The position numbers and the translations under genes were made by a program. A stretch of 34,297 nucleotides of DNA from SAR202 cluster bacterium (GTDB lineage: Bacteria > Chloroflexota > Dehalococcoidia > Lucifugimonadales > UBA6952): the NCBI GenBank assembly GCA_009392515.1, contig VFGE01000023.1, forward strand, positions 1 through 34,297, in the 5' to 3' direction. Under the pieces are notes generated by a model. It saw only the letters and a list, made by a program, of their open reading frames with translations. It made no database searches and had not been told where the DNA came from. Shown here in pieces: positions 31,241 through 34,297 of this stretch (the stretch's first letter is position 1; the number at the start of each line of letters is the position of its first letter).

Positions 31241-32218
31241 ATGTGGGATGACATGCCTAAAAAAACTGATCAATCTTCTAATCATCCATATAGACCTAAT
31301 GCTATCAATATAGAATCTACGTATTCATTGTCATTTCATGACATTTTTATTAAACCTGGTTTTCTATCTCATCTTGGATCCTACACACTAAGTTTAATCA
31401 TATCAACAATTGGTGGCGGGATTTTGGTAAGTGTTATTGCTGCATTCTTTCTAGATTCTAACGAAAATATGACTGCTAAAGGATTTGGAATTGCATTTCT
31501 TGTTGCAGGTTTTGTTATTCTAGTTTTACCCATGTATGGTGTTATTTCTACTTTTTTAAAATATAACAAACCAACTATTAAAAGTATCGAAAAAAGGTTT
31601 ATTTCAGTACTAGCAACACCTGTGGTTATTTTGGTATTTTTTATTATCTCAGGTATATGTATTGCAACGAACGTTTTGGTGATATTGGTTCCTCTTGCTA
31701 CTATAGCTCTTACAGGCCCACTTCATTTCTATCTATTAACTTCATTTAATAAAGAAAAATATTTAAGTATGTCAGTCAGTAAATCTGTAACAAAAACTGT
31801 TGATGTAAATCCAGAAATCGAAAACCTTCAAAAAGAAATGGAAAACCTTCGAGAAGAAATTGCAAATCAGCAACCAACCATTCAAGAAAATAATCCAGAA
31901 ATTGAACGTATGGCTGAAGAAATAGCTTTTCTTAGAGCACAGTTAGAAGCAAAAAATACTGTAGAATATACACCTGAAGAAACTCAATGGAGACCTTCTC
32001 CTATTACACCAGAACCAGGACGATTTGAGGGGACGTATTTAAAAGGAGGACCATATATTCTTGCATTCATTTTGGCCAGCCTTATACTATCCAGTGCTCT
32101 TGGTGGGGGAATTTATGGTTTGTTTAAAATATTAGACAAAAACGATGACGGAACATCCATAACGAGACAATATGCAAATGAAATATTAGATTGTGATAGG
32201 GCATTGGTTTCTTGTTAA
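31241..32218 (+). CDS. Membrane protein with coiled coil, unknown function
   Basis: 325 residues. A short hydrophilic N-terminus (1-45) is followed by four helices at about 48-71, 81-105, 121-145 and 147-167. Residues 190-238 are a heptad-rich coiled coil (EIENLQKEMENLREEI, IERMAEEIAFLRAQLE), then a proline-rich linker (WRPSPITPEPG), and a last helix at 271-297 (YILAFILASLILSSALGGG). The C-terminus ends in CDRALVSC with two Cys. I recognise no family; the layout suggests a scaffold or multimeric membrane complex. TAGGAG stands seven bases before ATG 31241. The enolase-superfamily gene starts 20 bases after it, so they may be one transcript. Confidence 0.6.
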   Translation: MWDDMPKKTDQSSNHPYRPNAINIESTYSLSFHDIFIKPGFLSHLGSYTLSLIISTIGGGILVSVIAAFFLDSNENMTAKGFGIAFLVAGFVILVLPMYGVISTFLKYNKPTIKSIEKRFISVLATPVVILVFFIISGICIATNVLVILVPLATIALTGPLHFYLLTSFNKEKYLSMSVSKSVTKTVDVNPEIENLQKEMENLREEIANQQPTIQENNPEIERMAEEIAFLRAQLEAKNTVEYTPEETQWRPSPITPEPGRFEGTYLKGGPYILAFILASLILSSALGGGIYGLFKILDKNDDGTSITRQYANEILDCDRALVSC

Positions 32219-32237: not shown

Positions 32238-33341
32238 ATGAAAATTACAAATGTAAAAATGGATATGTTCTACTGGAAATCGGAACCATGGAAAGTAGGA
32301 CTTAATTTTCAAACTTTCGGTAGTACTCAAAAACTTGGAGTAGTTACTGTTGAAACAGATGAAGGAATAAGTGGAAACGCTTTTCTCGGTAGCTCGAGGA
32401 TGGGTGCGGATCATTTTGCTCCAGGTTTGATTGAATTTATTAAACCAAGACTTATTGGGAAAAACCCTCAAGATATTGGTGCGATTTGGCAAGATCTTTG
32501 GAAAGCTAACCGATCGGTTTCAACATACATAATTGGTGCAATAGATATTTGTCTTTGGGATATAAATGGGAAAATTACTGGTCAACCAATCCACAGACTA
32601 CTAGGCACATGCAAAGAGGTTGTTCCTGTATATTCGAGTACAGGTTTTTGGGAAACAAAAGAAGAATATGCAGAAGAAGCTATTAAATTTAAAGAAATGG
32701 GCTGGATAGCTCATAAAATACATCCACATGGAATTGCAGCAAACGATATTGAAATATCTGAAGCTGTACGAAAAGCTGTGGGTCCTGAGATGAAACTGAT
32801 GCTAGATTCAACATGGGCTTACAACTACGAAGATGCTGTAAGGGTTGGCCGTGCAATAGAAGAATTAAATTACTATTGGTATGAAGACCCTTTAGCGGAA
32901 GAAGATATTTACAACTATATAAAACTTCATCAAAAATTAGATATTCCTATTCTATCTACTGAATATGCCCCTGGAAGGTATTATGGCATGACTCAATGGA
33001 TCACCCAATTTGCAACTGACATCCTTAGAGGCGATGTAGCGATTACTGGTGGTATTACTCCATTGGTTCGACTATGCCATCTTGCAGAAGGATTCAAAAT
33101 GAAATGCGAGATTCATCACGGAGGAAACTCCTTGAATAATGTAGCCAACCTACATGTTACGATGGCAGTCCCTAACTGTGAATTTTTTGAATTTTTCCCT
33201 TCCACAGGAAGTAATATGTTCGGGTTAGTAGAAGATATCCAATTCGATGGAGGTGTTGTACATGCACCTACAAAACCTGGGCTTGGATATGATATAGATT
33301 GGGAACTTTTACATAAAGAATACGCTGGTACTGCAGAATAA
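32238..33341 (+). CDS. Enolase-superfamily enzyme (mandelate racemase/muconate lactonizing type)
   Basis: 367 residues, full family length. The N-terminal capping domain runs to about 125, then the barrel: AHKIHPHG carries the KxH motif (K160, H162) in place of the KxK of muconate cycloisomerases; metal ligands are D190 (LMLDSTWAYN), E216 (WYEDPLAEED) and E242 (STEYAPG); the His-Asp dyad appears as D266 (RGDVAITGG) and H293 or H294 (EIHHGGNS). This is the layout of acid-sugar dehydratases and mandelate racemase. Probable reaction: proton abstraction next to a carboxylate, likely dehydration of a sugar acid or hydroxy acid. AAAGGAG precedes ATG 32238. It is followed after 12 bases by the OsmC-family selenoprotein gene. 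Expanded sets of such enzymes are typical of SAR202-like genomes. Confidence 0.92.
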   Translation: MKITNVKMDMFYWKSEPWKVGLNFQTFGSTQKLGVVTVETDEGISGNAFLGSSRMGADHFAPGLIEFIKPRLIGKNPQDIGAIWQDLWKANRSVSTYIIGAIDICLWDINGKITGQPIHRLLGTCKEVVPVYSSTGFWETKEEYAEEAIKFKEMGWIAHKIHPHGIAANDIEISEAVRKAVGPEMKLMLDSTWAYNYEDAVRVGRAIEELNYYWYEDPLAEEDIYNYIKLHQKLDIPILSTEYAPGRYYGMTQWITQFATDILRGDVAITGGITPLVRLCHLAEGFKMKCEIHHGGNSLNNVANLHVTMAVPNCEFFEFFPSTGSNMFGLVEDIQFDGGVVHAPTKPGLGYDIDWELLHKEYAGTAE

Positions 33342-33353
33342 AGGAGATCAATT

Positions 33354-33869
33354 ATGCCAAGTGATATACCTCAATCTATCGTAGGTGAAGAATTACCAAA
33401 GGGTGTATTTACTTCAACCGTAGTTGTAGATTGTGAACATATAGAAAAAATGCTTCATAAAGCTACAAGAAATCAATTTACCTTTTATTCTGATGAACCA
33501 GAACGACTTGGAGGAGATGCTAAACATCCCTCTCCTTTAGCTCATATTGTAGCTGGTATTGGATTCTGACTACTTACTCAACTGAAGCGGTACGCTTCAA
33601 TGAGAAAAGTAGGAATTACTACCGCTAAAGTACACGTTGAACTTGACTATTATCTCAAGGGGTCAGTAAAACAAGGTACTGTTGAAAATAAAGTAACGGA
33701 AGTTAGAAGTGAATTTACTGTAGAATCCAAAGATCCTGATTCTGACGTTTTAGAAATAATTAGGATCGCTAAACAAGGTTGTTTTGCAGAAAATCTGGTT
33801 AAAAATGCGGTACCTTTAAAAAGTTCATGCCTACTCAACGGAAAAGAAATAGATGTGACGCAAACTTGA
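33354..33869 (+). CDS. OsmC-family protein, probable selenoprotein with in-frame UGA (Sec)
   Basis: OsmC/Ohr proteins reduce organic hydroperoxides with a reactive and a second cysteine. The frame from ATG 33354 meets TGA at 33567-33569 and continues open to TAA-type stop at 33869 without a shift, 171 residues in total, which is a full OsmC. The first part ends DEPERLGGDAKHPSPLAHIVAGIGF, then U72, then LLTQLKRYASMRKVGIT, matching the family motif PxELLLAALGxCxxxTL, where Sec replaces the reactive Cys. The partner Cys is C143 in AKQGC. A perfect hairpin lies 13 bases after the UGA (see SECIS entry). Usual gene callers would split it into two fragments (33354-33569 and 33600-33869). AAAGGAGAT precedes the ATG. 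It is the partner of the enolase-superfamily gene just upstream. Confidence 0.88.
33567..33599 (+). promoter_or_regulatory. UGA selenocysteine codon and bacterial SECIS hairpin
   Basis: TGA (33567-33569), 13 bases, then TGAAGCG (33583-33589), loop GTA (33590-33592), CGCTTCA (33593-33599): a perfect seven-base stem. The loop begins with G, and lies about 20 bases from the UGA, within the range known for bacterial SECIS elements (about 16-37 bases). The hairpin is inside the coding sequence, as in all bacterial selenoprotein genes. Confidence 0.8.
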
Positions 33870-33935: not shown

Positions 33936-34297
33936 ATGGCAAAACAATTAAACATATTTAGTATGGTAATTCTCATGCTAACCATATCGCTTTTTACCGC
34001 GTGTGGAAATGATTCTCCAAAGGAAGCTCCAAATGTTCAAGCTACAATTGATGCTGCTATTGAGATCGGTATAGCAAAAATACCCACTGCCACACCTACT
34101 CCTTTACCTATATCTACACCTACTCCTGTTCCTACTCCTACACCTCTTCCTACTCCTACACCTCTTCCTACACCCACACCTACTCCTACACCTACACCTA
34201 CTCCTACTCCTACTCCTGTACCCACACCTACGCCTACGCCTCTTCCTACACCTACACCTACTCCTACCCCTACACCTACACCTACCCCTACACCTAC
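33936..34297 (+). CDS. Lipoprotein with Thr-Pro repeat linker (3' end beyond window)
   Basis: Open frame from ATG 33936 to the right edge (120 codons seen). The signal peptide [20 protein letters not shown] ends in TAC with the lipid-modified Cys23 (SLFTAC). Then [26 protein letters not shown] is followed from about residue 50 by [12 protein letters not shown] and long TP repeats that run off the window. This Cys plus ATIDAAIE plus Thr-Pro tail is a common plan of Chloroflexota extracellular lipoproteins, where the TP run is a flexible stalk; the functional domain would be further downstream and is not seen. CATAAT at 33924-33929 lies six bases before the ATG and no Shine-Dalgarno is present, so it may be leaderless. 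Confidence 0.75.
34085..34297 (+). repeat. Six-base tandem repeats coding Thr-Pro
   Basis: Degenerate CCTACT/CCTACA/CCCACA hexamers repeat from about 34085 to the window edge. They code the TP stalk of the lipoprotein and create a spurious Gly-Val frame on the opposite strand. Confidence 0.9.

Follow-up and report, generated by a model that had tools for sequence, protein, structure and literature searches.

Near the end of the window, by which is meant the whole stretch of 34,297 nucleotides analysed here, two short reading frames are separated by an in-frame TGA. The locus thus raises the question of whether it carries a broken gene, two small proteins, or a single gene in which UGA is decoded as selenocysteine (Sec). 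The first-pass annotation had favoured the last of these, an OsmC-family selenoprotein easily misread as broken, and the present analyses agree that the gene is real and easily mis-annotated: with a probability of roughly 95%, the segment is predicted to be one intact gene for an OsmC-like selenoprotein with Sec as its active-site residue.

A single reading frame with one internal TGA

Translation with TGA read as Sec (U) gave 171 residues, or 172 codons including the stop (Table 1). The only internal stop of the frame (33354-33866) was the TGA at codon 72, which falls in the catalytic-Cys column, and the second Cys was retained as C143, exactly as had been claimed beforehand and as an alignment of 35 members confirmed. 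The protein matched the NCBIfam family NF041052, 'OsmC-related (seleno)protein' (OsmC_like_Se), with 157.1 bits against a cut-off of 95; the whole model was matched (positions 3-144 of 144), with Sec at the family position, and nothing of substance sets the gene of the window apart from this family, of which it is one more member. The Pfam OsmC model matched as well. The terminal TGA is taken as a true terminator because the reading frames of L052 and L053, both close relatives, stop two codons sooner, at a codon other than TGA. No other OsmC-family place was found in the genome (1.55 Mb, 98% complete).

Table 1. Position and supporting evidence of the features of the OsmC-like locus, in window coordinates.
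Feature	Position	Strand	Evidence
Enolase-superfamily (MR_MLE) gene, upstream, ending 12 nt before the ATG	32238..33341	+	PF13378/PF02746; synteny only in L051-L053 and L058
RBS-like AGGAG, 7 nt before the ATG	33342..33346	+	Read in the sequence
Predicted OsmC-like selenoprotein CDS, from ATG (171 residues, U72, C143)	33354..33869	+	NF041052, E 2.7e-46; PF02566, E 2.5e-14; translation with TGA as U
In-frame UGA, predicted selenocysteine 72, UxxT motif U-L-L-T	33567..33569	+	TGA at this column in each of 35 aligned members; Cys in distant homologues
Full SECIS hairpin including lower stem	33570..33612	+	-18.0 kcal/mol; lower stem in nearest relatives only
Apical SECIS stem-loop UGAAGCG-GUA-CGCUUCA	33583..33599	+	Both sides changed in 5 of 7 pairs; pairing in 90% of cells
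Stop codon TGA of the OsmC-like CDS	33867-33869	+	

Conservation of the in-frame TGA

The codon was followed through two surveys at the NF041052 family cut-off. A search of 250 genomes of the order gave 87 places above the cut-off, of which 86 carried TGA, the sole exception (L059) having Cys at this column; in 400 genomes sampled evenly from the phylum, TGA was present in 26 of 27 members, the exception being L078 with TGC. The sequence following this TGC folded at -1.8 kcal/mol and contained no hairpin, while seven Sec members folded alongside it gave values from -9.9 to -18 kcal/mol. Every member read residue by residue had TGA at the same column, and more distant homologues had Cys there. 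The first-pass annotation had named relatives with an ordinary sense codon unrelated to Cys as a finding that would speak against Sec; none was seen among the 87 members of the order. The residues invariant among the 35 aligned members include D47, E48, U72, T75, R79 and C143, and the UxxT motif is present as U72-L-L-T75 with both U72 and T75 invariant.

These data bear directly on the idea of a pseudogene, or of a sequencing or assembly error, in which a Cys, Trp or Arg codon became TGA. The window does come from a draft assembly, and stray extra TGAs occur in relatives (a second TGA at a conserved Trp in L070, and a TGA at Trp in L068), but the same TGA is found in relatives of 95-98% identity from other assemblies, as well as in all but one of the 87 order members. 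An error at 33567 is thus excluded in practice, and conservation of the frame and of C143 on both sides of the TGA argues equally against a pseudogene, leaving this explanation a negligible probability. Much the same holds for two short proteins separated by a real stop, namely residues 1-71 and an 89-aa ORF that does open with an ATG at 33600: T75 and R79 are invariant yet lie upstream of this ATG, and the split would cut through residues 61-83, the helix at the centre of the predicted OsmC fold, so that this division is extremely improbable.

Some other copies depart from the common pattern. In the family member L069 (G239:C21), the frame is broken just past the Sec position, within the SECIS, where a TAG and a gap of four codons also occur; this is a decayed copy or an assembly error. 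In L071 (G058:C3), which is the second copy in its genome, Ser replaces the second Cys (RGSFAER) and an extra TGA is present; this copy is possibly decaying. Two distant OsmC-like proteins of the order, L067 (G045:C2) and L066 (G007:C148), carry TGA at the same column, followed by hairpins of -18.8 and -12.2 kcal/mol, respectively; these two suggest that the use of Sec is not confined to a single OsmC subfamily.

SECIS hairpin and selenocysteine machinery

The apical stem-loop, described in the first-pass annotation as a 7-bp stem with a G-starting triloop, was confirmed. It begins 13 nt past the TGA and its GUA loop is closed by a G-C pair, giving a SECIS with G in the loop. The surrounding sequence forms one long imperfect hairpin (z -6.15), and none of 200 shuffles was equally stable. 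Across 20,000 synonymous recodings that kept the protein fixed, the mean was -4.8 kcal/mol (sd 2.3) and no recoding matched the stability of the hairpin, which is explained neither by composition nor by the encoded protein.

Covariation analysis of the apical stem gave a score of 0.447, compared to 0.112 for shuffles; none of 500 shuffles reached it (28 distinct sequences), a count that is not a probability because related sequences are non-independent. The score was also far above that of slid controls, which preserve relatedness. In both subgroups, every sequence has G as the first base of the loop. The lower stem is not conserved past the nearest relatives. The sequences of the tetraloop subgroup (alignment A2) are too uniform for a covariation test, and in several members the minimum-energy fold lacks the apical stem, so that their SECIS case rests on covariation.

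The same genome contains the complete machinery for bacterial selenoproteins: SelA (515 bits), SelB (338 bits), SelD (354 bits) and a tRNA-Sec with anticodon UCA (61 bits, against a gathering score of 47), which upholds the proposal that the organism uses Sec. SelA was above cut-off in 71 of the 78 member-bearing genomes of the order, and the other seven are draft assemblies of 55-91% completeness. The SelD gene itself has an in-frame TGA (CAG-U-AAKF) followed downstream by a hairpin, UCCAAG-UGA-CUUGGA (L017:1531, G000:C37, about 32689); the OsmC-like protein is therefore not the only candidate selenoprotein of the genome. The UGSC selenoprotein family gave no match in this genome, but the controls gave none either, so that this negative is uninformative.

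Decoding of UGA as Trp or Gly genome-wide, or unspecific read-through, has nothing beyond the open frame in its favour and can be dismissed, since the window's ordinary genes are uninterrupted and terminate normally with translation table 11, the genome has the full Sec machinery, the hairpin covaries, and homologues have Cys, not Trp or Gly, at the site. Taken with the match to NF041052, the hairpin and the Sec machinery, the OsmC-like protein is almost certainly a selenoprotein. Judging from these parts and their conservation, SelA would make Sec-tRNA(Sec) with selenophosphate from SelD, and SelB carrying this tRNA would bind the hairpin just 3' of the UGA, leading to insertion of Sec at codon 72.

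Predicted fold and activity

Structure prediction of the OsmC-like protein (pLDDT 88) showed an OsmC fold, with best structural matches to 1lql (Z 14.8) and 2onf (Z 14.7). The alignment placed U72 on the catalytic-Cys column, as had been anticipated, and the aligned residue is Cys in 3cje, 2opl, 2onf, 9wo1 and 1vla. Sec72 would therefore occupy the site of the reactive Cys of the OsmC fold, and C143 that of the second Cys. The nearest solved structure by sequence was 3CJE, an OsmC-like protein of Jannaschia sp. CCS1 (E 4.8e-19), which has Cys where the protein of the window has Sec, and a second Cys (GCF) at the C143 column. The Ohr/OsmC hydroperoxide reductases (TIGR03561; 1usp, 1n2f, 2bjo, 1nye) share the fold (Z about 11-13), with the reactive residue in the same place and a second Cys. 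However, solved Ohr proteins carry NPEQLFAAGYAACF, with a Glu ten residues ahead of the reactive Cys (Cys-10), whereas this position is Leu in 31 and Met in four of the 35 aligned members. Since the catalytic-Glu position is Leu or Met in all of them, a strict Ohr-type mechanism appears unlikely. TIGR03561 gave no match at E 1e-30 or over its cut-off in this genome and 249 related ones, while five control genomes matched.

The combination of OsmC fold, Sec and second Cys suggests a selenol peroxidase or reductase. Ohr and OsmC, the best-characterised proteins of this fold, act as peroxidases, and Sec is a typical feature of enzymes that reduce peroxides. Peroxide reduction is given an even chance of being the activity of the protein, and a Sec72-C143 cycle would be a plausible route to it. 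In the most likely mechanism, Sec72 would attack the peroxide, or another electrophilic or disulfide substrate, and then form a selenenyl-sulfide with C143, after which a dithiol reductant would reset Sec72. A selenol-based reductase or transferase not aimed at peroxides, which the precedent of Ohr and OsmC disfavours, is rated at slightly under even odds: the Ohr Glu is missing in all members, which instead share the invariant polar residues D47, E48, T75, R79 and N162, the gene context is not conserved, and the family is listed in the papers found, but with no tested function. It is also possible, though rather doubtful, that an OsmC subfamily regularly occurs in its Sec form throughout this order of Chloroflexota, with an active site lacking the Ohr Glu and a chemistry or substrate perhaps unseen in characterised OsmC/Ohr enzymes. 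Retention of Sec almost order-wide in the absence of the Ohr Glu in any case poses a definite, testable question on the chemistry of the family.

Relation to known OsmC-like selenoproteins

The gene is not new in kind, as the family is already catalogued and has been known from marine metagenomes since 2005. Such reports had been mentioned in the first-pass annotation: three OsmC-like UxxT selenoprotein sequences were obtained from environmental reads of the Sargasso Sea (PMC1088965, 2005) and five from those of the GOS survey (PMC2398784, 2008), and reviews of 2022 and 2026 include OsmC-like selenoproteins. These sequences (COG1765/PF02566) have in common with the present one the UxxT motif, a SECIS directly downstream and a marine origin. 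They differ in being environmental reads, while here the gene lies in a genome akin to Dehalococcoidia/SAR202 records and accompanied by Sec machinery. No literature joining SAR202 with a selenoprotein was found in the library searched, and plasmid homologues comprised only remote OsmC proteins of less than 31% identity.

What is added here is the host group (the public records of the relatives are Dehalococcoidia, SAR202 cluster), the observation that Sec is almost fixed, the covariation found in the SECIS, and an exchange between Sec and Cys in which the hairpin is missing as well. An apparently broken gene thus becomes one intact predicted selenoprotein gene, and a family previously known from short marine reads can be placed in SAR202-type Dehalococcoidia genomes with complete Sec machinery.

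Genomic context

The upstream enolase-superfamily gene is possibly co-transcribed with the OsmC-like gene. The close relatives L051-L053 and L058 keep the order GYD-domain protein, unnamed gene, enolase-superfamily gene, OsmC and lipoprotein-like protein, while outside these the neighbours are carbamoyl-phosphate synthase, SbcC/Rad50-like, glycosylase, DUF1800 and NHL-repeat genes. The proposal that the protein detoxifies organic hydroperoxides formed beside flavin and enolase enzymes found no support, given that the enolase neighbour is kept only in close relatives, more than 18 kb separates the window's flavin-type enzymes from the OsmC-like gene, and the Ohr Glu is absent. Assignment of a function from gene neighbours was rejected because they are not conserved, and the context points to no substrate.

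The gene at 31241-32218 had no Pfam match. Downstream, a lipoprotein-like ORF with a long Pro-Thr (PTPTP) repeat occupies 33936-34297 and runs off the window end. Elsewhere in the window, positions 4084-24479 hold a catabolic-looking set with two luciferase-like monooxygenases, an FAD oxidoreductase, acyl-CoA ligases, enoyl-CoA hydratases, two family III CoA-transferases and a dienelactone hydrolase. The records L051 and L052, labelled Rickettsiales and Rhodospirillaceae, respectively, share their gene order with the window and have 95-98% protein identity to it, as does the Dehalococcoidia record L053; the labels of L051 and L052 are probably wrong.
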